From Nymphaea colorata (lineage: Eukaryota > Streptophyta > Magnoliopsida > Nymphaeales > Nymphaeaceae), in the NCBI RefSeq assembly GCF_008831285.2, contig NC_045150.1:4850001-4914000 (forward strand): a stretch of DNA of 64,000 nt, given 5' to 3'. The notes beneath the pieces are model-generated. The model ran no database searches. It was given only the letters and a program-made list of their open reading frames with translations, and had not been told where the DNA came from. This document shows positions 1 through 51,056 of the stretch, piece by piece. The translations under genes and the position numbers were made by a program. Every line of letters begins with the position of its first letter. Position 1 is the first letter of the stretch.

Positions 1-962
1 AGAAAATAAGGAGGAGAATCCATTGTTAGATGAGCCAGAGGAAACTGTCCTACAAGCGGTGGTAGTTGTGGATGTGCACACTATAGCTGCACTAAAAATT
101 AGAGGTGCTAGGCGAAGGAGAAAAACAATTGGCCAAATTAGAAGTGGTAGAGGAAGTTGTAAAGAAAAACGACGATTGTGTGACATCGATGTAAGTAATC
201 TATGTCATTTATACAAGTACTTATAATTAAAGTTTCTACATTGGATAATATCTTTGACACAAGTTTCATGTTATAGAAATGCAAGTGCTGCCAATGGCAT
301 CTAGTCGTCAATTGGTATGAAGATTTGTCAGACTTCCAGAAGTAGAGATTGACAAGAATGTAGTTCTCGGGACAACTGTCTTTTGATGCCATGGAATTTC
401 AATGGGGGCCCCAGTATGCCCTAACACAAAAGTGAAATTCTCAGACAAACATATTTGTGTTTGATGGATTCGAGATAATGATCATTTTAAAAGACATTGC
501 TACGTTGTTGAGTTTGAAAACTCACAAAAAACTTATGCTCAGGACGTAGGTACAACTTGAGTGGAAAGAGCAGGCAATATTCTAGGGTTGACAAATTTGG
601 AATTCCAAAATGTTGTGGCTTTTGGAGGAGAGTCTATGTCAATAATTGTTGTAGCGCTACAAATAAATTGTAGCATGCAAAGCATGATGCACATTCACAA
701 AACAGACCAAACATTGAGGTCCTTTCTTCTTTATTTATTTGGTATGTGTCTTTTTAATGACAACTCAGACTCTAGAATGAGCTGGCTGTATGCCCAATTT
801 TTAGAAAATGTGGACTAGATTCACTACTAGGCATGAGGATCAACTATGCTAGCTTAATTGTATAGTCAGCTAGAGCTATTTAACAATGGGGTTGCATCCG
901 TGGGAGGATGTTGGACAATATCTTCATCATATAAATTTATTGCGAAAAGGATTATCTTTCAT
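1..962 (+). pseudogene. Plant mobile domain (PMD) gene, left-arm copy, first part
   Basis: The copy enters from outside the window with an acidic stretch encoding DEPEETVLQ, then a motif SGRGSCKEK shared with the right arm. A likely intron runs from GTAAGT near 192 to a TAG acceptor near 276; the right arm has the same donor and acceptor. Downstream, 300-560 encodes the PMD signature (WYEDLSDFQK, then TNIFVFDGFE-like), and 690-900 encodes the later PMD segment (FGMCLFNDNSD, then an SQLE-like helix). Stop codons and frame changes break the reading frame. PMD proteins occur both as host genes (MAIN/MAIL) and as passengers of transposable elements; the context here favours the passenger type. 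The copy is split at 962 by a gypsy insertion and resumes at 23,357. Confidence 0.7.
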
Positions 963-3958
963 TGTCACACCCTAACACATTGACCTACAAATAACCCTCT
1001 TTTTTTGTTAACACATAAAACATTGAGGTGCAATGACACAACAATTCAAAAGGAAATGAGCTATGCAAGTAAAAAACAGTGGGGCAAAGTTTTCATTATA
1101 TGATAAATTCAATTCATACAAAATCACATTACATTTCTCAATAATACGTATGACAAAAATGCCCAAACCACAACATTGATGCCTAACAAAAATAAGATAT
1201 CAATAAGACCAAAACATGATGCGCTGATACTACAATAGACCTAAAACCTCCCCAATAATACGTGAGTTCTGCCACCTGAACAACCTGCTGCCTTGGATCC
1301 GCCAAAACCTGAAAAATAAAATAACAGAAGGCTTAGCTTTCACAATATGACAACATACCAAATAAATTCCTAACCCTCTAAGATAATAGCTCAAATATGA
1401 AATATAGTAATTACGGAAACAAAACATTATCATGTCGTGATAGGGTAGGTAGTCGCAGGACTTGTCGTGGAAGTCCCTCACATACACCACAACATGTAAA
1501 GGCCACTCAATGACTATCATAACAAATTCATTAGTCACATGCAATTCATGTATAAACATATCATTCACAGTCACTTCATTCACATTCTTTTCATTTACAT
1601 TAACTTTAGTGAATTGACAGTTCCTGTGGGTGCAAACACAAACACATGCACATCACAGGTGACATACAGTCGAGAGACAACCCCGTAATGGCACGAAACA
1701 ATATGAATGCATTCAAACTGCAGTGGTAGAGCACTCGTCCATGGATGTGTAACTTACAAGGAGAGTTGCTTAGCCTTCCCTAGGACACCCAGGTTGGGAA
1801 GGTGGGAGCCCAACGCTCCAAGCACATCACACAACAATATCCTGAGGCCTTGCACCGCCTACGCTCTGAGCAAGCGAGACGAGTGGCGAAGGCGGGACGA
1901 CTCCCAAACATATTGCCACAACCCACTGGACTCACATCTATTAATCTTTCTTACTTATCATTATGATAACATGTTCACAATATGACCAGCTAGCACATGA
2001 GGTTGATTCACTTCACGAGTGCACCCATACCTCCAAACGCATCCACATGAGGGCTACACGTATAGCCATCATTCTTAGTTAGTTGTCATAACATTATAGG
2101 TACAACTGCCATTCAATTTCATTCAATTACATCATGCTCATAGCAATGCATACGAAACATTTTGCAACATTTGCATCAATCATGTCTTACAAAACTTAGC
2201 CGAATCACAGAGAGTAGTCTCGATCCATGATTGGCTCGTAACTGTCCTTTGCAATTATCATTCTATGATGTTTTCTAATGCACAATCGAGGTCGAGGAGA
2301 TTCTTGTCTCGATACCCCACCTTATTTGTTCTAAGCAGTTATCATTGCTAGCATGCACATGCAATTGCATAGTAATTTTAAAAACAAAATCAATCACATG
2401 CACACATTCATGTAGCAATAAGCACTTATAACACATACATCAATCACAAACACAACATAGGATCCTACGATCCTAAGAAACCATGCACTCAACATTTGGC
2501 CCTCAGGTAGAGATTTGCCTAGAATGCCTCTATTCCTATCTTACGTCACCAAAATACACAAAATGCCTTGAGCTTCGAACCTTGTCGCTCAAGGCCTGCT
2601 TGACGTGCCCGGTGTACTTGCAAACATAATCAAGCAATAAAATTTCTACTCATTTCGCTTTACAATCTATACAAGTTTGAAATAAAATCCTTGAGGCATA
2701 TGTCATCGCCTCAAGAGGGTGCCGATGGGTAGTATCGGCCCATAAAGCCCTACAATAAATCTCTTCCCAACTCTTTGAGGTTGTGACTAAACAATTTAAG
2801 CTTTGAGCTCTCAATTTAACTAATCACTAATATGTTTCTCACTTGCTTTCTTAGTTGAGACGTCAACCCCGCAATTAAGCTTCCCAACTTACATACTCTA
2901 TCACAACCAACACGCATTATACACATCGACAATAGCATGCGCGACGTGTTCATTACCCTTCTCCACAATATCAAAATCTCTATAATGCTTTCCAATCGCT
3001 TCGAAAATCAACCCGCCATGCTAAAAAGATAAATATACACATGGATCCTCGTCCCTCCAAAATAGTCTTAGACCTTCCCCAAAAAACAAAGTCGCTGGCA
3101 AGCATTCTAAATCATCAAATCTTAAGTCTCGCATGCACAATCAATAATTATACATGTGCTAACATAAAATATTAGACAATTTAAGCTTAATTAGCCTCAC
3201 TTACCCAACCTTTGAATCCAAACTACTGCAATCCTCCCGGCAGCCACCTCAAGTGTTCGGTTGATCCCCAACGGCGAAAATTAACCATTGCCATCACCTC
3301 CCAAGCCTTCAACTCACTGGTATGAGGGGAATGATGTGTCTCCAAGCTGCAATCTAATCCAACAGCCACAAAGAGTGAAAATCAGCGAAAAGGGAGTTTA
3401 AGAGAGGGGTCTGTTGTTAGAAGGGGCCCATGGTAGCTGTGAGGGAGGTTGAAGATGAGTGAGAGAGGACACGAGAGGATGGGAGTGGGAGGAGGCTGGC
3501 AGTAAGGAGAGAGAGCGATAGAGAGGGGAGACAAACAAAGTGGGGAAATCGAGCGGGAAATGGGGAGAGGGGGAGGAGGAGGCAAAAGAGACGGGGAGAG
3601 CTCGAGCAGATAGAGCGTGGGCAGAGGGAGTGGGACGACATAGGAGGGAGATAGTGATGATAGAGAGGGGAGATGGCATAAACAACGAGAGAGGGAGGAG
3701 GAGAAGAAAGAAGAAAGAAGGAAGAGACAAAGAGAGGTCGAGAGGGCTCACCTGAGTGCCGCCACCGCCCTTCACCTCCGTCGCCGCTGCCCTTCTTCCA
3801 CTGCCTGCTTCTCTATGTCGCAATAATCAACGAGATACGAAGGGGGAGAGAGCCAGTGACCAGAGAAGGCGGAGGGAGAGCCGGCGTTGGGCAAATCACA
3901 CAATGGATTTCAGGTCCGGGTTTGGATCCCGATCCAACCCGACCTGCCAAAATAGATA
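963..3958 (-). repeat. 3' LTR of the del-like element
   Basis: This 2,996-bp LTR is intact. On the plus strand it begins TGTCACACCC and ends ...CCAAAATAGATA, where the other LTR ends in ...CAGACA, so the terminal TG of the minus-strand start has mutated to TA. It contains a GA-rich tract (about 3,400-3,740) that produces spurious long ORFs on both strands. I see no gene in it. Confidence 0.85.
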
Positions 3959-4502
3959 ACGTCACATCCTACCCTCCTTAAATAAAATTTCGTCCTCAAA
4001 ATTTAGATCATACCTCAACATGAGAACAAGTGTGGATACTTTTTTTGCATATCATCCTCGAGCTTCCATGTGCTCTCCTTCAATCCATGATGTTGTCATT
4101 CCACTTTCACCAAAGAAATTCTCTTAATGCGAAGCACTTGTTTTCTTTGATATATAATTCTAATAGTTTTTTCTTCCATTGTCAAATCATCTTGCACTTG
4201 AATAGATTGAAAGTCAATCACATATGTAGGATCTGGTACATACCTTCGAAGCATGGAAACATGGAAAACATTATAAACATGACTCAAATTAGGTGGTAGT
4301 ACCAATTTGTATGCCACCTCTCCGACCTTCTCTAATATCTCAAAATGTCCAATGAACCTTAGGCTCAACTTTCCCTTATTGCCGAATCAAAAAACACCTT
4401 TATTAGGATAAATTTTCAAGAACACATGATCACCAACCTCAAAAGCCAACTCTCTGCATCGAATGTTGGCATAACTCTTCCGTCTACTCTGAGCTGTCAA
4501 TA
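3959..4502 (-). pseudogene. Gypsy integrase C-terminus and chromodomain remnant
   Basis: The minus strand reads the conserved end of a chromovirus polyprotein. It starts with AQSRRKSYA, then a LAFEVGDHVFLK motif, FIGHFEILEKVGEVAYKL, LPPNLSHVYNVFHVSMLRRY, and LVKVE, followed by a chromodomain-like tail (STWKLEDDMQKKYPHLF). Known chromoviruses use this region to target integration. There are two visible lesions: a stop after NKGVF at about 4,388, and a TGA where family members normally carry Trp just after LVKVE (about 4,096). The 5' side is cut off by the deletion at 4,502. No function is expected. Confidence 0.85.
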
Positions 4503-5558
4503 TGGGGCAAATTTTTCATTATATGATAAATTCAGTTCACACAAAATCACATCAGATTTCTCAATAATTCGTATGACAAAAATACCCCAACGACAACATT
4601 CTGCCTAACAAAAACAAGACATCAATAAGACTAAAATATGATGCACCGACACTACAATAGACCTAAAACCTCCCCATAGGATGTGAGTTCAGCTACCTGA
4701 TCAACTTGTTGACCCAGGTTCACCAAAACCTGAAAAATAAAAAAACAAAAGGCTTAGCATTAACAGTATGACAATATACTAGATAAATCCCCAACCCTCT
4801 AATGTAAGGGCTCAAACCTAAGATATAGCAATAACGAAAGCAAATCATTATCATGTCGTGATAGGGCATATAGTCACATGACTTATCATGGAAGACCCTC
4901 ACATATACCATGACATTTAAAAGCCACTCGATGGCCATCATAACACATTCATTAGTCACATCTCATTCACGCATAAACACATCATCCACATTTACTTCAT
5001 TCCCATTCTTTTCATTTACATAAGCTTTAGTGATTTGATAGTTCCTGTGGGTACAAACACAGATATGTGCACACTACAAGTGACCTACAGTCAGGAGACA
5101 ACTCTCGTGATGGCCCGAAATGGTATGGATCCATTCACACTGTAGCAATAGAGCACTCATACATGGATGTATGAATTCCAAGGAGAGTTGCTCAGCCTTC
5201 CTTAGGAGGTTGGGAAGGCAGAAGCCCAATGCTCCAAGCACATCACACAACAATATCATGGGGCCTTGCATCACATGAATTCCGAGCAGGCGAGGCCAGT
5301 GGTGAAGGCAGGACAACTCTCAAACACATTGCCACAACCCACTGGCCTCACATCTATTAATCTTTCTTATTTATCATTATGACATCACATTCACAATATG
5401 ATCAGCTAGCACATGAGGTTGGTTCACTTCACGAGTGCACCCATACCTCCAAACGCCTTCACATGAGGGCTACACATGTAGTCATAATTCCCATCCAGCC
5501 GTCATAACATTACGAGTACAACTACCCTTCAATTTCATTCAATTACATCATGCCCATA
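4503..5558 (-). repeat. 5' LTR of the del-like element, first part
   Basis: It is directly homologous to 1,080 onwards of the 3' LTR (shared TGGGGCAAA start and the block around TTCATTATATGATAAATTC). It lacks about 117 bp of the LTR end, which was lost with the internal deletion. The segment is interrupted at 5,558 by the Tat-like gypsy and resumes at 21,457. Confidence 0.85.
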
Positions 5559-8500
5559 TATTCGCACCCCAGTCTTTTTCTCAAGGGGGTTAAAATGCGA
5601 ATCAGCAAAATTTTTTTAAATTGAGGTTTTGAAAAATATCTTAAGGGAAAGGGATCCACCCATCGGTACGAGGTCCAACCGTTCCTACCGCCTTTAACAG
5701 GGGTAGTTGGACCAAGGACTAAGAATCATTTGGATCATATACGAGTTTTTGATTCAAATCCTATATGCTTATGCATTGAGGTTTTAGATTCAAGAACCGA
5801 AATTCATTTTAAATGAGTAATTTGAACTCCTTTTGAAGATTAGAGGATTTTCAAATTGGTTCAAAAACCTTAGTTTTTGGGCTATTCGATTTGAAATACA
5901 CAATTCTTGAGGATTTTGAAGAGCGAAATTGAGTCATTTGTTGTGAACTCTAGATGGTTCATGAGTTGAAATTGTGATCAACTTTTAAAAAATAGCTAAG
6001 TTTCCTTAGCAAAAAAACTTGATTTTTTGAATTCTTCTTTTGCCAAATCGTGTGATTTGGTTAGGTAAAGTTCATTCTTTTGATGAAACATAGGTTCCAA
6101 ACGTATTATTTTCCAAACATACTTTGGCCAAGAATATGAATGCATTGCTCGTGTTTTCTTTTGAAGTGAAGAGAAGTTTACAAATTCTTGTTGCAATATG
6201 ATTTGGTCACTTTTTGCAGATCAAATTTGAATCACTTAACTTCTTGAGAATGTGCATGTGGTGCTATTGATTTAGAGTGAAAGTGAATGCATGAAATGAG
6301 AAAGGAAACTATATGGAACATTCATTCTTCCCTCTCTCATAACCTCTCAAGATTCGTTTATATGAAACATACATTCTTCACTCTCTCAGAATCTCTCAAA
6401 GTCCATCCATTGTAATTACATGTCATACAATCTACACACAAATATTGATTTTAATTAAAATGTAGGACTTTTTCTAAATGTGCTTATTATATGATTAAGC
6501 ACATGAATTAGAGATGTAGTCCATAAGCTTGAGACTTAACATAAAATTATCAAAATGATGAAAAATACACAAATGATGCCAAAATCAATCTTTGAAATAG
6601 ATGAGAGACATGTATGACATCCACTTTTGTCTCAAGATAGCCAAAAAATTAGATCTTATATTGATTTAGATGGCTGAAAGTTGTGGACATTGATTCCAAT
6701 AAAGAGCTTGTTTCTTAGCTAGAAATGAGAAGTCGTTCATCAAATTTCAAATTTTGTACTCATGAAATCGTCAACTTCTTTGGATGGTTCTAGGATAGTT
6801 GGCATTTCAAACATGTAAAATTTGACATTATTAAACCAATTCCTATAAAACATGATCTGATTTCAATAACGTACATAGATCTTATGTATGGATTGCTGAA
6901 ATTAAGCAAATTTTAAAATGAAATGAAAATGATCTCATAACTTGGTATTATGAAAATCAAAATGATTTGTTTTCTTAGACCAGTTTGGAAACGTGTTCCA
7001 ACCTGATTTTAAGAGAGGAAAACAATTTTTAACAAAAGATTGAACACATATATGTATATATATAACAATGTATACATACACGTACCTCACTTCTTCAAAA
7101 TGAAATTTTATCATGGGACCGCATGACTCATGAATCATGATGATTCATGGATGGGTTCTTTTATGTAGGAAGACTGAAAACTTGTTTCAAATCTTCCTTA
7201 CTACCCTTGATCAATTAAATAAAGAATGAAACAAAAGAACTTTAAATAGAATGAGATAAATGAATACTCAAGCTAGTTCATCCTTAATTTCGCCATGCAA
7301 AGGTCGATTACATTCATGAGAATGCATCCATGCTTAATAGGCTTTTTTCGTCATATATATATTGCAGCAAGATCACTCTCTCACCATGGGATTCTATCAT
7401 GGTGGGGAGTTCAAAATGGTTTTAAGCTGGTTGTTTTGAAAGGGACATGGCCTTGGAGCCCATTCCAAAATTTGATACATAGTTTCATCTTTAAGAAAAA
7501 TCGATGTATGCATGCATTATGCATTAACATGTACATTTAATCGTATGTTTTTCCTAGCTGGACATCATGTTCAGCCATGAAATACACAAAAATAAACCCT
7601 CCACACGAGTTGCTGAAATTAAAATTAACTAACGAGAAGCCAAAATAGACGAGAAATGAGTTTAAATCACCTACCTTGCGGTCGGTCTTCATACTTGATC
7701 TTCGCCTTCACTTGTTTTCTAAATCGAGCAGTCCTGAGCAAGAATCCAAGCTTGGATTCGAGCTTAGCAAAGCTAGAAGTAGAATAGCTTGCTTGCACGA
7801 TCTAGGTGGGCTGGGCTAGGTGTGGTCAACCTTGGTTTAGACCTAGCTGACCAACTTTGACGAAAATTTTGGACAAAAATACCCTTGTACAGGGTTTTGC
7901 CTTATTTTGTGCTATTTATTTATTTTTGTTTGAAATCGAGCTTGTTAGGTTAAAAGCCAGTTTCTAAGCTCCAAATTTCATTGAATTATGATTATCCAAT
8001 TAAAATTTGAATAAAATTTGAAAATTCTATTAAATTTGGCTCGAAAAGGGTATTTCCATCCATAATTTGATTGATGACGGATTTCAACTGAATCAAACTT
8101 TCGTTTGAAAAATTGAATTTTAATTTGGCATTTGATTTATGCATTTGACAAATCCAAATGTTTATTTGCCATTCATAAACCAATTTGGGCTCTATAATCT
8201 CAATTTGGCCATAGAGGGGCAAAATTGTTCAGATTGGTCAATTTTGACCAATTGGCAAAGTCAAAGCTCATTTGTGAGTAGTTTGACTTTGTTTGATGTA
8301 ATTTGATAAATTTGAGTCAAGAAAGCTCTTAATTGAGCTAAATTATACTTTGACTGAGTTTAGTCAAAGTGGGTTTGGTTCGATCAAAGTCTATTTTCGT
8401 CCATTAATTGGATCGTGAAACAAACCTACTTTTTGGCCAAGCTGAGCTCATGTTGATTGAGCCTAGTTGGGTGAACTAGGGTCGAACCTACTTGAATTAA

Positions 8501-9110
8501 GTGGGTTTGACCAACCTAGTTATGGATTTTCGAAGATTGAAAACTCTTTAAAGAGGACCTAGTTAAAGAAGAGAGAGATGCATAAATGTTTCTCTCTTCC
8601 TAGGTTTTTAGTTATGATATCATTCATTTCTCCTTGAAAATGATTTTATTTAATTGGAAGAAAACTTTTATTTATTTATTTATTTTAAATGGGGGGGAGA
8701 CCCCTGGGGGCCTCTTGACCACACGGGCTAGGTGGGGCTCACACGTGGGTCCCACGGTATTCTAGACTGAATTAGATCCAATTCTTGGATCTAAGTCAAA
8801 ATTTGAATTTTCCAATTGGATTTGAATTTCAAATGACATTTGTAATTGAATTTGGATTTCAAATGACATTTGTAATTGAATTTGAATTTCAAATGACATT
8901 TGTAATTGAATTTGGATGTCAAATCCTAATTTGGACATAGTTTGGACTCATAATCTTGCATTGGGATTCGTGTCATGGGTTAAATTCATTATTCGAACCC
9001 AAATTGTGGGTAGGTTTGAAATTGGCTTTGAAATTGTAAAATTTCACAATTCTTTTGTGAATTTTTCACATTACTTCAATTTTGATGTGAAAAAATTTGG
9101 GATGTTAACA
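5559..9110 (-). repeat. 3' LTR of the Tat-like element
   Basis: It is homologous to 17,573-21,451. On the plus strand it begins TATTCGCACC, against TGTTCGCACC in the other LTR, so its outer TG is mutated to TA, and it ends GATGTTAACA. Relative to the 5' LTR it lacks about 390 bp near 7,797, the stretch that includes the TATA box. It has a 30-bp unit in three exact-length copies at 8,821-8,910, where the 5' LTR has one. Confidence 0.9.
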
Positions 9111-9125
9111 GATGCCCCTCTTTGC
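9111..9125 (-). other. Polypurine tract of the Tat-like element
   Basis: On the minus strand the purine-rich GCAAAGAGGGGCATC directly precedes the 3' LTR start (TGTTAACATCCC). This is the expected position for plus-strand DNA priming. Confidence 0.75.
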
Positions 9126-10204
9126 TGTTAAGGAAGTTGAAGAATTAACTTAATAGCAGAATTTACAAGCCAAATTTTTGCAAATTGAAATTGAAAAATC
9201 TACTTTTCAAGTGATGTTGAACCAACCCTACTCGAGGGGAAATGATAGGCATAAACCTGAAATAAGAAGATTTTCCTCTTTCTCACGGGAGACTTTGTAG
9301 AGGAATTAATGTTGGTCGAAAAATTTTGCAATTGTGAAAGTTTTTGCGTTTGATGTTTGGAGAACTTAGCCTTTGATGTCTTTTAGACCATTGGCAAGTG
9401 CTTTTTCTCTCCTTTTACTTAGTTTTTCGCCTATTCACTTTTGCTTTTAAATTTTAATTTTCTCTTTTTGAGCCGCCCTTCACTCTTGGGGAAAATTCCT
9501 CACCACTCCAAAAGCTACTACGGAGTTCCATCGCTTTGGCAGTTTTGTGTAGTTTGTTTTGTGCAATATCAAGTCTATCGGGCTTTCTTTTGAACCCCTT
9601 GTAGCGAGCTTTAGGCCGGTAACTCCTAGACCAGTTGGCCTTAGGGTACCAAGTGTAAAACACTCCGCGGACTTACTTGCTCGAATTCAAAAGGCTTTAG
9701 GAGACTTAATATAAGCAAAATGTTCGTGGATTGCTTTTTAGATTCACGGTGTAAGCATAGGTCGTATGCCCACCCGCGCCTAAAAGCTTTGAACCAGAGA
9801 AACAACTACACTCACCCCGAGCTCATCGCTCAACTCATTTTGCTTGATAGCTTTTTCTTGTATCTTGCCAAGGTCCTTTAGGTCACAATGACTTTTTCTT
9901 GTGGCATCTCATGCTAGACCTTTACAAGTGCCAATTGTCGGAACCAACATTAATTTCTCGACATTAATCCCTCAATTTCATTGAAATTTCTTACATATTT
10001 CAAGCCAATGCCTTTGCTGTTGTCCTCGAGACATGGGCTGAGTTTGAAAATTTTGATGCTTTTTTTTTTGAAACTAAGGGATACTATGCCCCTTAGTTGT
10101 TTTGAAAATTGGTAAAAATGTGCTTATTAAAGCACAATTGTTTCAAAATCATTGATTTGCAAATTCAAGTATAGAATTTCTTGAGATGCAAAGCATTAAT
10201 CGGA
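9126..10204 (-). other. Non-coding 3' region of the Tat-like element
   Basis: About 1.1 kb lies between the integrase stop and the polypurine tract. No conserved ORF was recognised. Long 3' non-coding segments are common in Tat-branch elements. Confidence 0.6.
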
Positions 10205-10963
10205 TCAGGGATTTCGACCCCATCGGCGAATCAACCGATAAGAATTGTGGGGTAGAACCTCCTTGACGACACAAGGTCCTTTCCAGTTCGGTGCCCATTT
10301 TCCTTTAGGTATATTCCTGAGTGGAACTATAGATCTTAGAACAAGATCATTTACCTGAAATTTTCTCTCAATGACCGATTTGGCATAATGTCGGGCGACT
10401 CTCTTGTGATAGACTTCAGCGCGCTCTGCTGCTTGTAGTCTTTTCTTATCTAAGAGGTCTAATTGAGCAAGTCTCTTTTTTTGATACTTGCTAATTGGGA
10501 GTTCAATGAGAGCAGCAAATTTCATTGCTGGTTTTTGGACATGTAATAGAAGAACAATTTCCGTTCCATATACTAACTCTACTGGTGTAGCATTGGTGGT
10601 GTCCGAATTGTGGTTCGATATGCCCAAAGTGCATTGTGCCTTTTCTCGTGCCAATGTCGGCCTGTTTCAACAGTCCTTTCTAAGTCACAAACCAAAATAT
10701 TGTTGGTTGCTTCTGCCTGACCATTACCTTGGGGGTAATATGGGGCAGAGAAGTGATGTTGTATTTTGTGTTTGTGACAAAGATTGCACACTTTCTCATT
10801 TTTAAAATGAGTACCGTTGTTAGAAACGATATCGTGCGGGATGCCAAATCTACACAAGATTTTTGTGGATGAAGAACACTACATGTCGTCCTTCGTTTGT
10901 TTTTAAGGTGATTACTTCGACCCATTTGGTGAAATAATCTGTAGCTGCAAGAAAATCCGCCAT
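10205..10963 (-). pseudogene. Integrase core and C-terminus of the Tat-like element
   Basis: The minus strand encodes the catalytic core and C-terminal part of a gypsy integrase: ATDYFTKWVEV (first Asp), FGIPHDIVSNNGTHF (second catalytic position), YYPQGNGQAEATN (Glu region), TPVELVYGTE, then WAPNWKGPCVV. The second catalytic Asp is replaced by Asn (codon at 10,819-10,821). The frame shifts several times (about 10,857 and 10,600-10,650). The zinc-binding N-terminal domain is missing because a deletion near 10,960 joins the archaeal-type RNase H straight to the core. Integration of cDNA into the genome would be its normal role; this copy cannot do that. Confidence 0.88.
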
Positions 10964-11500
10964 ATTATGTGTACAAGAGAAATTCAATTTGAGGTAGTAA
11001 GGAATCATTTTCTTGTCTGGTGTAATGAAAAGTATCTCAATGCCTGCCCTACCTGTGCTTTTAGATCCATCAAAATATATCTCCCAAATTGGCTCTGGTT
11101 CAGTCGTTAGGATTTGCTCATATGAAAAATCATCATCTGTTTTGATTTCTTTAGATAGAGGAAAATCTGCCAACTAATCTGCGATGGCTTGCCCCTTGAT
11201 TGATTTTTGTGACACATATTCCAAATCATATTGCATCAATAAAACCTGTCACTTTGCTATCATTCCATTCAGAAATGGCTGTTCGAGGGTATATTTGAGT
11301 GGATTAAGTTTGGATAAAATTTTAACTTCGCATGCCAATAGGTAATGTCTTAATTTTTGACACATCCATACCAAGGTTAAGCAAGTTTTTTCCATGTGCA
11401 AGTAGTTCTTTTCATACTGCACAAATGTCTTACTGATGTAATAAATGGCATGTTCTATTCGACATCATTCTTCATATTGAGCCAAAAATCCACCACAGGC
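10964..11500 (-). pseudogene. Two RNase H domains of the Tat-like element
   Basis: After RT, 11,174-11,500 reads the usual gypsy RNase H (FLAQYEE, YYISKTFVQYEKNYLHMEK, LACEVKILSK) with stops. Then 10,964-11,173 reads an archaeal-type RNase H start (LADFPL, WEIYFDGSKSTGRAGI, FITPDKKMIPYYLKL, CTHNMA). The second domain breaks off at THNMA and continues directly into integrase, so its last part and the integrase finger were deleted together. A duplicated RNase H is characteristic of the Tat lineage. Confidence 0.82.
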
Positions 11501-39867: not shown

Positions 39868-40890
39868 TGACATCACATGCATTGTGTCATCCGATGATGT
39901 AGGTATTTCATAATAGTCGCCACCTTCATTCAGCTCTTTCTACCACATATTCAGGCCGATGGGTTTGTTGCCCCCTCAACCCCATGACCTTTTGTACCCC
40001 ATTCTATGTCACTAGCTGCTTTCATGCCTTATTTTGTTGAAACAGAGAATTGTGTGCCACCCTGTGTATGCAATGAGCTTATCCTGGGGGTTGACGCTAC
40101 TTCTATGAGAGTATACAGGGTGGTGGACTCTACTACATATATATGAAGTCCCAGTATTGACCTTTGTGACATAAAAGGTACAATGTATATATTTACTTAA
40201 TGTTTTAACATTGCATGGACAAAGTACATGTACTTATCATTCATTCCTTCATGCAAAGGAGGATGTTCCCAAAGGAGCACAAAGGCTGCTGGTGAAGAAA
40301 ACTTGGCCTTGAAGCAAAAATGGTGGGAATGTCAACAAAAGGGAAGGATGGTGAGTTCATAACAATGTCGTTGTACTTTTTTATTCGTTGATGTTAAATG
40401 ACAAATGCTTGGGCATTCAAAGCAATCGAACAAGCACTTCTAGTGGATTTGAAGGTGAAGGTGAAGATAGAATTCAAAAAGAAAAAAAATGTTTATGCAA
40501 TAGATATGATGTATATTCTTGTTATAGGTGAAATAACGACTGTGTGTTGCAGTTCATATGTGATATAATGTTATGATATAACATGTGGGAAATAGTTTTC
40601 ATAAGATAACAAATTTGTGACAACGAATGCATGAGATAATAAATTCATGACATAACTTTATGCATGAGATAACGAATTCATGAGACAACTTTACGCATAT
40701 GATAATTAATGTGTAAGATAATGCTCAATGTTATTGGCTGACAAACTTTATGCATGAAATAATATTGAATGTTATTTTATCAATAGACATTATGTGTAAG
40801 ATAGATTGTGTGAGACAACAAATTCATGAGATAATGTTCAATGTTATTAGATCGACAGACTTTATACATTCAAATGATACAATGTATAAA
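39868..40890. other. Central spacer of the inverted duplication
   Basis: The first ~48 bp (to about 39,915) still match the right arm: CATCCGATGATGTAGG here against CTACCATCATCGGATG near 40,900. The remaining ~970 bp are unique between the arms. At 40,555-40,860 lies a degenerate tandem repeat around TTCATGAGATAATG and GACAACAAATTCATGAG. Both FAR1 copies are read away from this spacer, so it sits where a divergent promoter would be. No ORF here is supported. Confidence 0.6.
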
Positions 40891-43310
40891 CTATCTACCA
40901 TCATCGGATGGTGCAGTGCACATGATGTCATCATCATCGGATGGTAATGAACTAGAGAATGAGTCCCTCTATGAGGGGATGAAGAATACCGAAGAACATG
41001 CTCTTGTTGTAGAAATGGAGTTTGAGACGGAGAACACCACATACCATTTCTACAATTCTTATGTTTTGCATCACGGGTTCAGTGTAAGGAATGGTAGATG
41101 GAGAGAAACACACATAGTGCAGTTCTAAAAAGATCATATGTTTGTTCAAAAGAATGATGGAAGAGATCAGTTCCATGTGTCTAGAAGCACAAGATCAACA
41201 CAAGTTGTGGTTGTGTTGTCAATTTGAAGCTAGCAATGCATCAAAATGAAAAATATTGGATTTGCGTAGTCACAATTGAACACAACCATCCATTGGCACA
41301 TTTTTGCATGAGCCGCATGTTAAAGTCGCATCACGAAATGTTAGCATCACATTCCTAAATACGTAAATTGGTTGATGGTGCAGAAATACCACCAGGGAAG
41401 ACACATTACCCATTTGTTAAAGTAGAAGATTGTTGTGAAATCATTCTATTCACATGCATGGATTATAAACACCACTGGAGGAGAAAGTGTATAGAATCAA
41501 TGAAAGAAGGAGAATTTATGTCATTGCTCAAATGCATTCAAAAAAGATTAAGCAAAAACACATGTCTCTACAGTGCCATTCAAATGGACGATGATGGTTA
41601 TGTCACAAGTGTATTATGGGCAGACTCGATGTCTGGGGTAGATTATGGATGCTTTAGTGATGTTCTTATTCTTGACACAATTGCGAAGGTTAATACCTAC
41701 AGCTGGCCCTTTACCCAGTTTATAGGGGTGAGCCATCACTCTAAAAGTTGCATTTTTGGCGGTGCATTCTACTTTGATCAGACCATTAAGACATGTGAGT
41801 AGTTGTTCAAGGTATTCACTGAGGCCATGAACAAGAAACACCCCAAAGTTGCACTGACAGAAGGTAACAGTGCAATAGCAACTACATTGTCCCTCATATG
41901 GCTAGAGGTGGATCATTGTTTGTGCTTGTGGCATATATTCCAAAATACAATGAAGAGCATAGGACATGTAATAATCAGAAGATTGGCTTTAAGGAGACTT
42001 TGTAAAATGTGTCCTTCAGTACAAAGATGGTGAGGCATTTGAATCTATGTGTTCATAAATGATTGATGCATATAACCTATAAGAAAACACATTTTCGTGG
42101 CTTCAAAAATTATATATAGACAAAGAAAAGTAGGTGTTGGCATATAAAAGACAATACTTGTATGCAAGCATGATAAGCACACAATGAGTGAAGATCATGC
42201 ATGCTGCATTGAAAATTGGAGTGTACTCTTGATTATAAAGATATTGATTCATGGAACACTATGATACATTTTTGGACAGTCTTAGAGATTGTGAGCTCGA
42301 GAAATGTGAAAGCATTTGCATCTTAACCTCAAAGTCTTCATATGAATATCCTTGTTTGAGCTGCATCTATGTACACACCAACTGCAGTTGAATGGTTTAA
42401 GGAAGAGGTCATTCAAGTGACTAACTGTGATATATAATTACATGCACAACAATCAAGTTGTTGCATATATCATGTAATCGAAATGGGGAGAGATATGACT
42501 AAGATCAATGATGTGTTCGTGACCTACCACATCAATACAGATGATGTCGAATGTTCTTGTAAGAAATATAAATTTAAATGCTCTAAAGATGCTTGATTGA
42601 AAGAACATTCAGAATCTGCCAGAGAGATAATGAAGATTTGTCCTGAAATTCCTTCTTGTGATGGTCTTAGGTCTCACAACCTGTCTCGCTACTAGTATAT
42701 GTGCAAGACACTGACGTATCTTGAGACTTGATAGAAAGAAATGACTGGGCTTATGAATACATGACATAGGTGAGAAACAAAGCTCTAGAAAACATTTTGA
42801 CTCTAAGTCGTATCAATGATGCGATAAGTAAACCCTAGCTCGAAACAATGTGTCCCATCACCTCAAACCTCTTGAAGAAGAAGAGCTATGGTTCTGCTAT
42901 CAATATTATGTTCGATAAGTTTGGGGTCAATGTTGTAAAATATGAGGGTACATTACGACCAGTCAATGATTTGAAGAGAAAGCTAATATCTTATAGTTGT
43001 TTGGGTAAGACAAGAAGTGCCCTAAAAACACATAATACCAAAAGAAAAATCAAGTAAGAAAATGATCCTCAATTTGTTGCATGCGCTACATTTGCAAATG
43101 GTGTAGTTGAGACTTGTATGTTGACCACATATATGCAATATCTATATGATCAAGATGGTTTTACAAAACTCCTAGTAAACTTTTTTATATTATATGTATT
43201 TTGTATGTTTTAACTTTAAGCACATTCTGATTTGTTTAATTGTTACAGAACCAAATGGATTCAGTTGGTTCTTCTCAATTGTAGCCAACTCTCACAATGA
43301 CACCCGACAG
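40891..43310 (+). pseudogene. FAR1-type Mutator-like transposase, right-arm copy
   Basis: The FAR1 domain starts with EMEFETENTTYHFYNSYVLH and GFSVRNGRW at 41,010-41,100. The MULE domain at 41,540-41,980 reads IQMDDDGYVTSVLWADSMS, DVLILDTIAKVNTYSWPFTQ, FIGVSHHSKS, and HCLCLWHIFQNTMKSIGHV. The first DDE Asp (LILDT) is present. The second region, usually Thr-Asp-x-Asp, reads TEGNSAI, so the acidic pattern is lost. A TAG at 41,800-41,802 stands where Trp is expected (left arm has TGG). The SWIM end (VECSCKKYKFKC, about 42,550) is followed by a stop. A tail frame is at 42,848-43,057. Lesions differ from the left arm, so the copies decayed separately. Confidence 0.82.
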
Positions 43311-43429
43311 AATGGGCATAAAATTTAGCCATGTAACTAGCTCTCACATGTATCATATATTAAATGATTGTCTTAAAGTAACAACCATTATTGCATGCTT
43401 ATGTGAATGTTGTTATGCCATACATTAAT

Positions 43430-44020
43430 GGACATGAATGGCAGGAATGGTTTTGAGAGAATGAGATAACAACACATCAACAAAAAAACCGATACATAAA
43501 CGAAAACAAAATAATGCGATAATGTAACAATATTAATTGTTACGAGAGAATATAATAACAACGTGTTTACAAAGAAGGCAATACGTAAACAGAGATGAAA
43601 TAATGCAATAATAACATTAGAAATTGTTACGAGAGGATGAGATCACAACATGTTTACAAAAAAGGCGATACAATAACAGAGAAAAAATATGAGAGAATGA
43701 GATTATAACGTGTCTACAAAGAAGATGATAAGTAAACAAAGATGAAATAATGCGATAACGTAACAACAGTAATGGTTACGAGAGAATGAGATAACATGTC
43801 TAACATAATGGTAGTAACGATTACAAGAGATTGAGATAACAAAAACAATATAGCTAAAAAAAAAAGATAACAATAGACATAAGGTAACAAAAATGAATTG
43901 CTTCTCTTCAGTTCATATAAGCATAAGATAACAAAAATGGGTTGTTTATTGAGTTCATTACAAACAAAAGATACGAAAAATGGACTATTTCTTTGAGTTC
44001 ACGACAGGAACTAGATAACA
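43430..44020. repeat. Array C, right arm
   Basis: Degenerate ~75-bp units with GTTACGAGAGAATGAGATAA, CAACGTGTTTACAAAGAAGG, GATACGTAAACAGAG, GAAATAATGCGATAATGTAA. It is the reverse complement of the left array C and is uninterrupted here. Confidence 0.82.
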
Positions 44021-44059
44021 AGTTTATTCACATTTCAATCTGCCTAACTATAACAAGCA

Positions 44060-45190
44060 AGTTTCCATATGATTTTTAATCATCCTGATAACATCAGCTT
44101 GGGTAAAGTTAGGCTTCCCTCCACATATCTTGTGCATGCATTTCATTACGAACACACCATAGTCACGGTTGTTTCTTTGCTTTGGATATTTAACTGGAAC
44201 AAGTTTGTAGTACTTAAATGACTTGATACCGAAGATTTTTTTTTTTGTACAATACCTCTACAAAAGAACCAAAATTTCTAACTCACCAAATACAACTTAT
44301 CTTAAAGACAATTAAGGTTACACTGCATACCAATCTATAAATGTCTTATAGATCGTATATCCATACTTGTTTTTTCAAGTCGTGGCCAATGTATAACACC
44401 TAACGTATTTGTGTGTCTCACACACAAGGAAATAAGAGCTGAAACACACGAGTGGTACACATATAGGCATTACAGAGAAGGTGAGTAAGGAAAAAAAAAA
44501 GGTGGACATTTGGGAAAACATAGAAAGAAGAACAACCATGTCAACTTTAGTAAGGTTGTTGTCGTTCACCACTGAATTCTTTTGTATGGCTTCTGTCATA
44601 AGAACGCCACTATCGTTCATCAATCAATGTTACATAGAATACAGTTATATATCGGTTAATATGATTAATATTTTTTGCAAGATGAAGGATATGTAATGGA
44701 AACAATCAAGATCAATGATATGTACTATGAAATCTGCCCTTATATGACTCCTTCGAAGGCCTAGATTTGCAGGCCTATCATCCAAAACATCAACAACAAA
44801 AAATCATACTAGCACTGCTAATTTGCTTCTGACAACTATTGTAGACTCAGCCTGGGTGGCTTTTTTTTTGGAATGTGTCATCCTGGTTGGAATGGCAGCT
44901 GATTTGCTGGAGTCACCAGCTGGTTTACTAGAGTTGCCACTTAGATTTCCTGTGTAACGTGTCATCATTGTAAAACCGAGCAGTTTTTCAGCATCGAGGA
45001 TCTTCTTCTCCCTAACCATGGAGTCTTTGTTTCTTTCTGCCATAGACAATTGTTTGTGTTGTTGGAGTCATTCTTACCAGAGACAAAATTTCTTCGCTCT
45101 CACTAGAGATCATCTTTCTTTATTGCCTAAATCTATTCAAAACTGCCTTTGTTATAGGAAACAATCCTTTTTTGTTCTCATGAGTTTTAA
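44060..45190 (-). pseudogene. Ulp1-like gene a, right-arm copy
   Basis: On the minus strand the N-terminal part (44,800-45,190) encodes MAERNKDSMVREKKILDAEK and a Ser/Lys-rich segment (NSSKPAGDSSKSAAIP), matching the left arm at 27,600-27,840. The peptidase part is at 44,060-44,620. The KQRNNRDYGVFVMKCMHKI motif has Tyr for the catalytic Cys (codon 44,159-44,161), and KYVRCYTL has Tyr at the His position; the left arm shows the same two replacements. The frame is broken in several places. Its convergent neighbours are array C and array B. Confidence 0.7.
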
Positions 45191-45239
45191 CATCCAATTG
45201 CCTCTTTTTTAGGATACTGTGTCTTTTTGGAAAACCATG

Positions 45240-45640
45240 TTCATTTCTTTTCAAAATGTTACTTATGTTAACATGTGTATACTAGTATAAACAACATTAT
45301 TTCAACTATAACATGCACAATAAGCAATAACAATATTATATCAGTTCTAACATAAACAACATTATCTCAACTTTAATGAACATAATACATATAACAACAT
45401 TATTGAGTTGTAATATGCACAATATGTATAACAATATTATCTCAACTCTAACATAAACAACATTATCTCAGCTCTAATATGCACAATGCATATAACAACA
45501 TTATCTCAGCTATAACATAAATAACATTATTTCAGCTTTAACATGCATAATACATATAACAACATTATTTCATCTTTTGCACAAACAACATTATCTCATC
45601 TTTACCATAAACAACAGCTCTAACATATATGGTTGCCATG
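45240..45640. repeat. Array B, right arm
   Basis: Tandem units of ACAACATTATCTCAACTCTA then ACATGCACAATACATATA, mirror of 27,040-27,400. Seven or more units are visible. Confidence 0.85.
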
Positions 45641-45649
45641 TATAGATAC

Positions 45650-45960
45650 ATATGAACATATATAGAGCATATAACAAGCAATAGAGTATATACATATAAG
45701 TTCATAAATATAATTTCATATTTCAACTAATTTTATCATATTATAACTTAGATCTATATCTAGCACATAACGTCATATGTTAATTTTAGTCAGCACATAA
45801 CAAGAAATAGAGTATATACATGTAAGTTCATACATACAAGTTCATATTTCAACTAATTTTATTATATTATCACTTAGATGCATATCGAGCACATAACGTC
45901 ATATGTTAATTTTAACCAGCACATAACAAGCAATAGAGTTCATACATATAAGTCTAATGA
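45650..45960. repeat. ~118-bp tandem repeat, right arm
   Basis: Two and a half units with GCAATAGAGTATATACATAT, AACTAATTTTATCATATTAT and CATAACGTCATATGTTAATT. This is the mirror of 26,430-26,990, without a TA expansion. Confidence 0.85.
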
Positions 45961-46290
45961 AGTAATCCATTGTTGCAGCTATATTAAATCAAAGGAGTCG
46001 GCAACTGCAAGATGAACAATGTCCAAGGACCATCCGTATGTACTATCATGTGTTTATCAATGACACAAAAAGGGCAACGTACTACTAAAATATGTACTAT
46101 CACGTGTGGTCACTCACATTCATTCGACTGCATTTAATGAAGTTGTATATTGCTATAGCTACATTAAGTTAAATTAGTCAATTGCTACAAGATCAATAAT
46201 GTCCAAAGAGCATTTGTCTGCACTATTGTGTGTTTATCAATGGCACAAAAACAGCAAGGTACTTCTACGATATATACTATCCCGTGCTAT
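45955..46290. repeat. ~180-bp direct duplication, right arm
   Basis: The blocks 45,957-46,110 and 46,130-46,285 share AATGAAGT..TATTG, ACAAT/AATAATGTCCAAAG, TGTGTTTATCAATG and GGCAA/CAAGGTACT segments. The left arm has a single related block at about 26,290-26,450. Confidence 0.65.
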
Positions 46291-46432
46291 TTTTCCAGCA
46301 AGATCATGGATATAAGTAACTGTATTGTTGCATGCAGGTGCATTAAGTGTGGTATGACAGAACAAATTTGGACTATATATATAAATACATGACAATCTCC
46401 ATGGAATTATCTTGTTTGAGAATATAAGAGCA

Positions 46433-47205
46433 ATGAAGAAGGAGAAACAAAATCTGTTCAATGATGAGATACATCAGAGTGTCCATGAGCTCAGCCCACA
46501 TGAATGGGTTAGCAACATCATAAGTACTGTCTCATTAATGTTACTGTTAGAGAATATGGTAGGTGGATAATTTTTATAGTCTATCTTCTCCTCACAGGTT
46601 CTGCATGATGCAGTAGAGTTAGTGCAATGATTAGTAGCAAATGAAAAGCGATGCATTCTCAATCTTGCTGTCATGGTAATTTAGTTTTTATAATAAATTT
46701 ATTGCTTGCTTATTATTAGAACATTCTTTATGTTCTTGTATCATGGTGTACATAGTGCAGTCAACCGAAAGCCTTTTGGTTGTGGTTTCATGTATATTAG
46801 AAAGATGCTTTCTGACCTCACTTTGTTGAACTCATTTGAAATGGTCTATACTCAACATATGCATCAAATTTTCTTGCCCCAATCTGTCACACTTCATCTT
46901 CACTCATGTGCAAAGATTGTATTATGTAGGTTCTAAATCCTACCTTGTGGGAAGAGTGTCATCATTGAGTACTATACATTTTTGACATACAAAGGAAAAC
47001 TTGCTTATACTACAATTCAATAGAAATGCATAGACCAGTATAGCTTCATTTGTGCTTCGTGGAAGAATTCTTACAAAGTCATTGCAGGATCAACATGATT
47101 CAGTGGTGTGCTTTTCTTAGGAAGGAAGATCCCTGCCAAAACAGTGGACATGATTGTGGTTTTTCCATTATGAAATACATAGAAGCAATCTACAATGACT
47201 ATTAA
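46433..47205 (+). pseudogene. Ulp1-like gene b, right-arm copy
   Basis: The first exon-like frame starts MKKEKQNLFNDEIHQSVHEL at 46,433. A block encodes HFIFTHVQRLYYVGSKSYLV near 46,890-46,950. The last block is DPCQNSGHDCGFSIMKYIEA, ending in TAA at 47,203-47,205. The Gln plus Asp-Cys-Gly arrangement is the C48 Ulp1 active-site signature and is intact here, in contrast to the left copy and to gene a. Internal stops (for example after ENMVGG near 46,568) and frame changes remain, so I treat it as a pseudogene, though unrecognised introns could explain some. Assignment as Ulp1 depends on the C-terminal motif. Confidence 0.58.
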
Positions 47206-47419
47206 CCTAATTTTGATTTTGTACATAACGGATAGACGTTTCATATTGCATTATTGATATTCTTTTTCTGTTCACAAACAGGGTTGTTTTCTTCATTGAA
47301 TAGTATACCACATTTTAAAAACCAGATATGTGACAACTTGGTAGAGTATGTTATATCGGGGGCAGCAAATAGAAAGCGCACAAAGAAGAAAACAAAAATC
47401 ATGGACATGAACAATGTAC

Positions 47420-47660
47420 AATGACATGTGTACAACATGAGAAATACAAAAGGAAATGAGATAGGGAGATAACAATGCATGCATAGAGCTAAAGATTGAC
47501 AAACAAAAATGAGATAGTGAGATAACAACACGTCAAAGATAAAGCAGCGGTATATGTAACAAACATAAGATAATAGAATAGGAAATAATCAAATGCACAT
47601 GAGAAAAAATGATAACATGACGACACAGTCCATTACACGCACCTAACGAAATGAACCAAA
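47420..47660. repeat. Array A, right arm
   Basis: GAAATGAGATAGGGAGATAA and AAAATGAGATAGTGAGATAA repeats, mirror of 24,480-25,080. Shorter than the left array. Confidence 0.65.
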
Positions 47661-47879
47661 ACGTCTCCCACATCATTCACACCATATGACAGCCTTATTA
47701 ATAAAATTAACTTATTATTTATCACTGTCATAAACAAACAAACAATATTTGTCGTTATTACTAAAATACAATTATTCTCAGCCATCATGTTCATGTCATT
47801 TTGTTTTTGACAGATTATGATTCAATAATCATTTTTTGAGTCAAAACAGCAACGTGAACAATCAGCGTACTTATTACTA

Positions 47880-50198
47880 CTAGCAATCTCTCTTCCACAA
47901 GTAGGTTTGGAAGTTAGGCTGCAGTTTCCATATGGTCCTGGCCTGTTGTGATTCAAATCTCCCTGCCCATATGCTCCTGGTGCAATTTACTGTGGATCTC
48001 CCTCCGAGCAGCCTCCTTTGCTGAAAATGATGATGATGAGGCTACATGATGTGGGATATCTTCTGTCACTGAGGTTGATGATAGAGGAAGGATATCTCCT
48101 ACTGTTGTGTATGTTGATGTAGTGGAATATCTCCTGCTGCTACAAATGGTGATCCACGAGGGGGCAACTAGATCAAAGAGATTTCAGGTACCCAACGATG
48201 CACTACATCCCAATATTACTCATGGTACCTTGGTGCAAATCCCTCACTGTCGTAAGCAACGACCATTTCACCTTCATGAGACCAGTTATGAAGCTCCTTT
48301 TGAAACAACAATTGCCAATCAACTCTAGCCCTTAAAGCATTTTTGTTCTTTAATCTCTTGTAGGGTTGGGGTGGATATGAAATTGATTGGCCCACACCTT
48401 GCTGCAAGAGGACTATGCTGTTGTGCTGCATTTCTATTTCATTCATGCAGAACAATCACACATCTATGAACAACAACTCAAGCGCTTGGACGATATTCCA
48501 ATCTTGGTATTTTGTAATGTAGTATGATCTAAACATTGCCTACACATAAACATGAAATAATTGTTCGTACACAATTATATCAGCATTCTTATTGAGCAAA
48601 ATATGAAACACTATTTGCTATACATGCCTCACCCATCTGAATATTCGATACAATCTACCTGGATGATTCTGCATCATTGTATTCTCTGAGACCGATACGT
48701 CTTCACTATGCATGTAATGAGTGTGCATCTGAAAATGGACAGTCCATAATAGGTCTAGTAGAAGATATGTGCTCCCACAACCAGAACTAAAGACAAAGTA
48801 AAGATATTACAAGATGAAAGATAATCGTTTTATAATAAGTTTACATGATGAAGATACTATCAATACCTACAACAACAACCAATATCCTCCCACAGATGCA
48901 ACTCCACTTTTAAATTGCTCCAACTGACTATACAAATACGCAAACATAGTTGTTCCCAATGCATAGCAGTGAATCTGGTCCACATCTTTCAAAAATTGGA
49001 TGTACTACCAACTTATTCTGGTGTCTGAATTATCACTAAAAAGACACATGCCAAATAAATAAACAAGAAAAGACATCAATGCTCGGTTGGCTTTTTGTGT
49101 AGGTGCATCATTTTTTGCATGTTATCATTTATTCTCTAGATATAACACAATTATTGACATCAACTTTCCCCTCAAAGGCCATAATCTTCTAGAACACCAA
49201 CTCTGTCAATCCTAGAAGATCGTTGCTCTTTGCTCTTAAGTTGTACTTAGACGTCCTGAACAGAAGTTTTTCTTGAATTTTCAGACCCAATAGCCTAAAA
49301 ACGTCATTTAGGGTGATCACCATCTCAAATTTATCAAACACAAATGTGTTTGTCTAAGAATCCCACTTACGTGCCAAAGCGTACAAGGGTCCTCATTGGA
49401 GTTTCATGGCACCAAAGCACAACAGCCCCGATAACTACACCAATATGCGCTTCTGGAAGTCTGACAAATCTTCATACCAATCGACGACCAAATGCCAATG
49501 ACAGAGCACACATTTCTTTAACACAATACCAGTGCCAAAGGCATTATCTAATGTAGAAGCTTTAATTACAATTACTTGAATAAATGTCACAGATTACTTA
49601 CGTCGATGTCACATAATCACCATTTTTTCTTTACAACTTCCTCTACCACTTCTAATTTGGACAATTGACGGTGCTTGCAAGACAACCGCCGCTTGCAAGA
49701 CAACTTCCTCAGGTTCATCAAACAGTAGATTCTCCTCCTTATTTTCTTTTTCCTCTTCATTCTTTGTCTCTGCGGCCTGTCCCTCCCTTTTTGCCACCAC
49801 CTGCTCCTCATTTTTCCTTATCCCCTTCATTCTCTATTTCTGTGGCTCTTTCCCTCCCTTGTCACCACCTCGTCCTTATTTTCTTTCTCCCTTTCATTCT
49901 CTCTCTCCTTGGCCTGCCCTTTCGTTTCCACCACCTCCTTGTCCTCATTGTCTTTCACCCCTTCATTCCCCTTCTCCATGACCGGCTCCTCCTTTTCTTT
50001 GTCCCCTTCATTCTCCTTTCCCACGACCTGCTCCTTTTTTTCTTTCTCCCTTTCATTCTCCTTCTCCACCATTGAGAAAACGACACATTCAATTGCCCTA
50101 TGCTCTTCTACAACGACAACTTCAAGTGCCCCTTCCTCTATTGGTTCTTCGCACTCATTGTTTACACATATCATTCTATCTCTGACCAAGTTCTTCAT
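47880..50198 (-). pseudogene. Plant mobile domain (PMD) gene, right-arm copy
   Basis: On the minus strand the gene starts near 50,198 (MKNLVRDRMICVNNECEEP). A 90-residue charged tract of imperfect ~15-residue repeats (KENEGDKEKEEPVME, RENEREKENKDEVVT) follows. Next are FDEPEEVVLQAAV, SGRGSCKEK, an intron (GTAAGT near 49,580 to AAAG near 49,500), WYEDLSDFQK, and the PMD core TNTFVFDKFEMVITLNDVF near 49,290-49,350. Then come FLVYLFGMCLFSDNSDTRIS, WLWEHISSTRP and a C-terminal Ser/His-rich tail near 48,000-48,100. Occasional stops are visible. This is the copy with the fewest interruptions and shows the uninterrupted introns into which the del-like gypsy inserted in the left arm. Confidence 0.7.
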
Positions 50199-50299
50199 GT
50201 TTGGTCCAATGTATTGGTCGAACAGACATCGTACAATGGACGATCAGTGTGAAATTCTTTCGTATTGCTTCAAATAGACATGATTAATTTGCAAGAAGC

Positions 50300-51056
50300 A
50301 AAAGAAACATGAGATAATAATGTCTATCGCAAGAAAAGAGGTAAAAGATTACAACACATGTATAAGATAGACACACAAATATGAAATAGCGGATAACATT
50401 ACCATATAAAGTAGAAGACAAACTAACAGATATAAGATAGTGAAATAACAAAGCATTCATAAAGTAGAAGATAAAAAAAGGACATAAGATAATGAAATAA
50501 CAACATGTTTTGTATTGTAAAATATAAACAAAAAGATATGAGATAATGAAATAACAACGTATTTATATATTATAGAAAATAAATACAAGGATATGAGATA
50601 ATGAAATAACAATATCTGTTTATACTATAGAAGATAAATAGAATGATATGAGTTATTTCATTATCTCATATCCTTTTGTTTATTTTCTACAGTATATACA
50701 CGTGTTGTTATTTCATTATCTCATATCCTTCTGTTTATTTTATGTAGTATATATGTGTTGTTGTTTTATTATCTCATATCCTTCTTCATATGTTCTATAT
50801 GTGTTGTTGTTTTATTATCTCATATCCTTCTTCATATGTTCTAGAATACAGACGCATTATTATTTTCATTATTTCATTTCATTATTTCATATCCTTCAGC
50901 TTTATCTTATACAATATATATATGCGTTGTTATTTCACTATCTTATATCCATCTATTTAGCTTTTACAGTACGGACGCGTTGTTATTTCATTATCTCATG
51001 TCCTTTTGTTTATCTCATACAGTATATACGCACTTTGTTATTTCATTATCTTTGTA
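50300..51056. repeat. Two facing ~60-bp tandem arrays (inverted tandem array)
   Basis: From 50,300 to 50,652 units of about 60 bp read GATATGAGATAATGAAATAA followed by CAACGTATTTATAT and TATAGAAAATAAATA. From 50,653 to 51,056 the same unit is repeated in reverse complement (TTATTTCATTATCTCATATC). The switch occurs at about 50,652. Each side holds roughly six units. The 142-codon ORF across the second half is a repeat artefact. The array lies just upstream of the PMD gene and may mark the outer end of the right arm. Confidence 0.85.

Follow-up and report, generated by a model that had tools for sequence, protein, structure and literature searches.

A mirror-image block of Nymphaea colorata very probably consists of two head-to-head copies of a passenger-bearing Mutator-like element

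How does a plant chromosome come to carry a block of about 51 kb in which the same genes are laid out twice, in mirror order, around a short centre? The block lies in a 64,000-bp stretch of Nymphaea colorata DNA (C13:4850001-4914000 of the 408-Mb assembly), which is the window analysed here; coordinates are relative to it, and negative values lie to its left. A first-pass annotation had left the choice between one enormous transposon with arms of more than 10 kb and two copies joined head to head. Our analysis supports the latter and not the former, given that single units occur elsewhere and that no second opposite-facing pair within 50 kb was found among the matches listed: the block very probably consists of two copies of one Mutator-like element (MULE) family placed head to head. 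The palindrome itself is ordinary, two dead copies enlarged by insertions of long terminal repeat (LTR) elements. The family to which the copies belong is a passenger-bearing MULE variant with a family-wide array of a short motif, TGAGATAA, and this array may best be read as a target system resembling that of the VANC proteins of Arabidopsis VANDAL elements.

Self-BLAST of the window returned inverted matches of 23352-36911 with 40927-48818 and of 126-962 with 48814-49667, bearing out the mirror-image arms that had been predicted, including a reverse-complement diagonal between 23.4-36.9 and 40.9-48.5 kb. With the LTR insertions removed, the arms align over 8,451 columns at 80.0% identity, running outwards from 39912/40885 (72-75% identity by BLAST with gaps counted). 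The left arm continues past the window into the genome flank, to an outer limit at about -1446 to -1454 that faces 51698-51709 of the right arm. Between the arms is a centre lacking arm-to-arm homology (39913-40884), which measures 972 bp where about 1 kb had been estimated. Since other copies of the family match the last 840 bp of the centre up to a common start at 40045, that part is assigned to the right unit (R) as its own 5' region; the remaining 132 bp, between R and the left unit (L), gave no match to R or to C3, one of the other genomic loci of the same family (labelled C1, Y, C9, C9b, C3, C6 and C8). R is one MULE copy of about 11.65 kb on the forward strand (40045-51698, ends good to a few bases), its 5' start shared with other copies and its 3' end placed by alignment to the left arm and other loci. 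L, on the reverse strand, was delimited from the arm alignment and the genome flank; with its insertions it spans 1-39912 and runs on to about -1446 outside the window, and it ends at the transposase start, the 5' ~840 bp being missing. Two further ideas about the junction were rejected. A 16-bp direct repeat at 40121 and 51226 is not a target duplication, the copy at 51226 sitting within both arms, and an insertion of R into the 5' region of L is unsupported, since the lost part of that region did not turn up at 51600-57000 or at -6000 to -1400.

The mirror of the annotated ~51-kb block is real, but about 30 kb of the block consists of later insertions, every one of them in the left side or adjoining the centre. 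At 963-23351 sits an outer LTR element into whose LTR a Gypsy element is nested (5559-21451), a Copia-type LTR element on the reverse strand (28903-33970) splits a left motif array, and a solo LTR (36913-39867), recognised by its end sequences and with no second LTR seen, adjoins the centre. The insertions are flanked by the duplications CCATA and GACTC, which were computed, and TTCAT and TGACG/TGACA, which were found by eye. The Kimura two-parameter distance between the arms (0.239) exceeds those of the outer (0.133), Copia (0.093) and inner (0.066) LTR pairs, so the arms separated before the three dated insertions. An assembly artefact, with one arm misjoined, is hardly credible, since about 20% of the aligned sites differ from one arm to the other, where a false duplication would have left near-identity, and since all the LTR insertions fall within the left side or next to the centre.

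Members of the family are found as single units elsewhere. A PMD query across the genome gave at least 43 scored matches, corresponding to at least 40 loci after hand merging and at least 38 besides the two arms (lower bounds, 40 of the 83 candidates having been scored; PMD-match loci are labelled L with a number). C1 and Y carry all four genes of the unit in the same order and C9 carries three, while C9b has the transposase, Ulp1a and PMD, C3 has the transposase and PMD, and C8 and C6 are partial. The single-arm copies that the first-pass annotation had proposed to look for thus exist, with their common 5' start at 40045 inside the centre, but 9-bp target duplications were not found. A giant transposon or macrotransposon, with the >10-kb arms as its terminal inverted repeats and the two moving as a pair, would account for a mirror that is continuous over the whole unit. 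It is nevertheless very improbable, given the PMD relatives at those 38 or more other loci, the lack of a second opposite-facing pair within 50 kb among the PMD matches listed, the failure to find a duplication flanking the pair (the best candidate, 6 of 9, falls within what random pairs give), and a 5' start that belongs to R itself inside the centre.

Outwards from the centre, each arm holds a FAR1-like/MULE transposase, an antisense Ulp1-like gene (Ulp1a), a sense Ulp1-like gene (Ulp1b) and an antisense PMD gene. The same four genes in mirror order had been annotated, and the order holds, but all four are broken in both arms and are now pseudogenes. The right transposase (approximately 40885-43300, forward strand) matches the MULE transposase domain PF10551 at 1.9e-13 and 51.1 bits, above the curated cut-off of 27.6; the left (34560-36910, reverse strand, with the gene start past the solo LTR at 39868-39912) matches at 3.6e-5 and 24.5 bits, slightly below it. 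The FAR1 domain of Pfam scored E 9.1e-5 and 23.5 bits in the right arm, below the cut-off of 28.1, and 0.07 in the left. A CxC...C stretch spotted by eye in the left arm may correspond to a C-terminal SWIM zinc finger, and Pfam gave no SWIM match; searching with the right transposase protein gave no match among 312 candidates. The PMD domain was detected at 1.6e-10 in the right arm (domain stretch 48200-49400, reverse strand) and at 4.2e-7 in the left, where the 5' part of the gene lies at 1-962 on the forward strand and the gene resumes at 23352 past the LTR nest. Directly upstream of the right PMD domain are acidic tandem peptide repeats with 15- and 23-residue periods (49732-50069; a reverse-strand open reading frame, ORF, lies at 49827-50243).

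The Ulp1-like genes were identified from Pfam matches and alignments. For Ulp1a, the Peptidase_C48 match is 5.2e-7 in the left arm (27480-28720, forward strand) and 0.036 in the right (44010-45270, reverse strand), where another family outscored it at 0.0019. For Ulp1b, the match is 4.2e-4 in the right arm (46000-47340, forward strand), exactly at the cut-off, and there is none in the left (25080-26565, reverse strand), which was recognised from its homology with the right one. Ulp1 domains seen in short pieces escaped the Pfam scans when whole long frames were used, and in the right arm they also escaped in middle-length frames, of about 440 amino acids, across Ulp1a and Ulp1b. Because the longer right frames gave none, the identity of Ulp1b rests on the borderline match together with its DCG motif. 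Nine copies were tried in the catalytic-site alignments and six aligned for each gene. In Ulp1a the position of the catalytic Cys is occupied by Tyr (TAT) in 6/6 copies (R, L, C9b, C9, C1 and Y), so the replacement is most simply ancestral. The DCG of Ulp1b is kept in 4/6 copies (R, C6, C1 and Y) and lost in L and C9.

The differences between the arms bear the marks of decay after separation. Over the FAR1-MULE region they are spread evenly across codon phases (83/364, 82/362 and 81/364; p 0.987, no bias), and the best transposase frame has 4 right-only stops, 7 left-only stops and 1 shared stop at the frame end. Ulp1a has one stop of each kind, the shared one being probably the gene's own stop, and the right-only, left-only and shared counts are 3/1/1 and 3/14/2 in the first and second PMD stretches. 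On the whole, the arms parted while the transposase was still open and then decayed neutrally.

If the block is two copies, how are they related? In a tree of 31 rows, R, L, L020, L004, L006 and L013 form one subfamily (100/100) whose tips are long and whose inner branches are short, and in it L joins L004, L006 and L013 weakly (88/85), and not R. An alignment of 5,336 columns, taken from nine copies over three gene regions, grouped R and L together in 158/1000 bootstraps. A sister grouping of R and L (98/94) in a first tree with unoriented loci was not kept; L004, L006 and L013 were misaligned there, and the grouping was gone once all rows were oriented. The 4015 bp of non-coding DNA in R are covered to 2395 bp by L, 2373 bp by C9b, 1518 bp by C3, 975 bp by C1, 500 bp by Y and 461 bp by C9. 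R is no demonstrably closer to L than to other subfamily members. Because the trees are star-like and the non-coding DNA of R is covered equally by L and C9b, R and L are taken to be members of one burst. The other origin to be weighed is an inverted duplication in situ of one inserted copy, by fold-back or template switch, with the centre as the single-copy 5' region. A template switch would leave L stopping at the transposase start while R keeps its full 5' region, as is seen, and R lacks a target duplication. Had the duplication come long after insertion, however, R and L should share a long branch, and none is seen. We therefore regard an in-situ origin as unlikely overall; in-place duplication long after the burst is unlikely, and at about the time of the burst it is possible.

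Whatever brought the two copies together, their intergenic intervals share a feature that extends to the family. The window contains 37 copies of TGAGATAA where shuffles predict 4.84, and 33 of these copies lie in the eight intergenic intervals of R and L, with 0 in 14,830 bp of other arm parts. It is one of two overlapping 8-mers common to all eight intervals (mean shared 8-mers 0.003 in 300 shuffles). The sequence around it differs from interval to interval, so the short motif itself is the shared thing. The arrays of R hold 3 exact copies upstream of the transposase (40400-40870, forward strand), 3 at 43300-44010 (forward), 5 at 45270-46000 (reverse), 1 in I3 at 47340-47640 (forward), which is weak alone in that 16/500 shuffles reach that count, and 9 in the inverted terminal array (50260-51060). 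Those of L hold 2 at 24500-25080 (reverse), 8 at 26731-27480 (forward) and 2 in the array that the Copia-type insertion splits (28720-34560, reverse). The terminal array is made of two halves in opposite orientation in R and Y, and several other loci match it on both strands at one place.

The same enrichment holds over the seven of the nine copies that were counted, with gene intervals set by hand from BLAST and Pfam and the partial C6 and C8 excluded. TGAGATAA occurs 113 times in 34,406 bp of non-coding DNA versus 2 times in 43,149 bp of gene parts, and control DNA around and inside the block has 5 occurrences in 71,257 bp. It is the commonest or tied 8-mer in 6/7 copies, and in each of the seven its count exceeds the maximum of 100 shuffles of that copy's own non-coding DNA. 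Y and C9 have 33 and 14 sites, though they match only 500 and 461 of the 4015 non-coding bp of R. Some single intervals in C1, C9 and C9b have zero.

A short motif arrayed in this way recalls the VANC proteins of Arabidopsis VANDALs, which bind short motifs in fast-turnover non-coding tandem repeats and cause methylation loss (PMC5735166, PMC10398659; these and the other papers cited are represented here by excerpts). The explanation that we prefer on balance is that R and L are two copies from one burst, now dead, of a family with a VANC-like anti-silencing target system. Around the time of a single amplification burst, two members of one MULE family would have come to lie head to head, by insertion or by being brought together, and would have been dead since. 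Each original unit would have measured about 11.65 kb and read, from 5' to 3', array, transposase, array, antisense Ulp1a, array, sense Ulp1b, array, antisense PMD, inverted terminal array and short end. In the live element, the transposase would move the unit, and we infer that one passenger protein, with PMD and the Ulp1-like proteins as candidates, would bind TGAGATAA in the non-coding intervals and render all copies hypomethylated and protected from silencing, in the way that VANC acts on VANDALs. Ulp1a would be a pseudoprotease, and Ulp1b possibly a real SUMO protease. That TGAGATAA is a protein target is probable, and that the motif system served in anti-silencing is plausible, if slightly doubtful. 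The fuller proposal is bolder and rather unlikely as a whole: a FAR1-type MULE lineage may have evolved anti-silencing independently of VANDAL/VANC, with a PMD or Ulp1-like protein (one partner being an ancestral pseudoprotease) binding TGAGATAA arrays in every non-coding interval and protecting all copies from DNA methylation.

Several observations weigh against this explanation. No 9-bp target duplication was found for R, L or the pair (best 5, 5 and 6 of 9, with random pairs mostly at 5 or 6), a test of little weight for old DNA whose ends are placed to within a few bases. Similarity between 3' and 5' ends was short and present in three of the pairs tried, with a score of 28 against null maxima of 24-28 in a small null. 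An approximately unbiased test did not reject R and L as sisters (p 0.354), nor did it reject the four other pairs tried. One PMD stretch gives a hint of codon-phase bias (p 0.06; the other 0.40), and the two PMD stretches have 3 shared stops, which may reflect introns or lesions that the arms truly have in common. Pfam scans did not detect DUF1985, the domain of VANC, though they covered the decayed frames partially and long-frame scans lost real domains. In C1, which has 7 exact copies of TGAGATAA, AGAGATAA and others rank higher. Finally, TGAGATAA holds GATAA, a common plant GATA/I-box core, and its sites could serve a host factor.

The last point belongs to the alternative that survives best, namely that the arrays serve, enhancer-like, as binding sites for the transposase or a host transcription factor rather than as targets of anti-silencing. 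Transposon proteins are known to bind subterminal repeats, which counts for the transposase-binding form of this idea. Yet TGAGATAA is present in all five non-coding intervals of R, including those well away from the ends, as in VANDALs (PMC5735166). We hold this alternative to be a possible one, rather less than evenly likely, and keep to a VANC-like target system as the preferred account of the arrays.

Other features of the locus and family were noted along the way. Among the PMD matches listed there are six cases of two family copies no more than 150 kb apart (on C13, C15 twice, C5, C1 and C2), all of them opposite-facing. The C5 pair and the two on C15 are 96.6, 99.0 and 99.9% identical, which suggests recent inverted segmental duplications or assembly artefacts, and the C1 and C2 pairs are 75-78% identical. 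The C15 copies were ruled out as young transpositions, Y and its relative matching beyond the expected element end up to the limit of the fetched DNA; this, together with identities of 99.0 and 99.9% in the inverted pairs there, points to segmental duplications. At L036 (C8:5434500-5444499, ~4001-7086), the PMD end forms a small inverted repeat with extra copies. The inner Gypsy element (reverse strand) has its own PMD-like ORF (16150-16785, PMD 2.5e-14) ahead of a gag ORF (13998-15356); this ORF is a property of the Gypsy element and not of the arm, is easy to mistake for the arm PMD genes, and makes the element resemble the Gypsy-borne PMD-A class (PMC5418596). Direct repeats about 85-92% alike at -19924 to -5072 (L032/L031) suggest a further LTR element left of L, and actin-like exons were recognised by eye in ORF translations at 57160-58492 on the forward strand.

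How does the family compare with known systems? Its components are each published, as the first-pass annotation had held for Ulp-type passengers in Mutator-like elements and for PMD in transposons (PMC2528002, PMC6446971). In grapevine and melon, ULP is found in MULEs of the MuDR-like and Jittery-like kinds (PMC2528002), some VANDALs carry Ulp1 (KIU/Kaonashi; PMC13317346), and many plant MULE groups have PMD, often antisense, half of the VANDAL group being listed with PMD and/or DUF (PMC6446971, Table 1). The combination had been thought unusual, and indeed no element with a MULE transposase, two Ulp1-like genes, PMD and motif arrays was found among the matches listed from the open-licence literature, in which no search was aimed at an inactive Ulp1 accompanied by a possibly active one. 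Jittery-like ULP MULEs share a transposase of the FAR1/FHY3-related group and a downstream ULP, and Jitvine-1 and -2 measure 11.9 and 14.4 kb; PMD, a second Ulp1 and a motif array are not mentioned for them in the excerpts of PMC2528002. MUDR, MUDRAVI2 and MULE-Solanaceae_1 (PMC6446971, Table 1) and the MULE-captured PMD-C (PMC5418596) likewise have PMD antisense to the transposase, but in the excerpted table the antisense-PMD MULE groups are listed with SWIM or CCHC rather than FAR1, and 'Ulp1' is absent from the text of PMC6446971. The grass and Amborella PMD cases differ in being transposase fusions (PMC5418596).

The closest likeness is to VANDAL/VANC (PMC5735166, PMC10398659, PMC13317346): in both, a MULE with passengers has degenerate ends, Ulp1 in some members, and one short motif dense in non-coding tandem repeats, which is what TGAGATAA is in the N. 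colorata family. The tandem peptide motifs in the variable regions of VANC proteins (PMC5735166) may also be set beside the acidic tandem peptide repeats upstream of the right PMD. Unlike VANDALs, the N. colorata family has a FAR1-like transposase and two Ulp1-like genes plus PMD per unit, and its motif is TGAGATAA rather than YAGTATTAY or AGTTGTCC/AC. Ikeda et al. speculated that MULE-captured PMD genes act in transposable element anti-silencing (PMC5418596), and a PMD-bearing MULE family with VANC-like arrays turns that speculation into a concrete prediction that names one motif of 8 bp and, as candidates, three passenger proteins. The family also suggests that Arabidopsis VANDALs are not alone in having dense arrays of short motifs.

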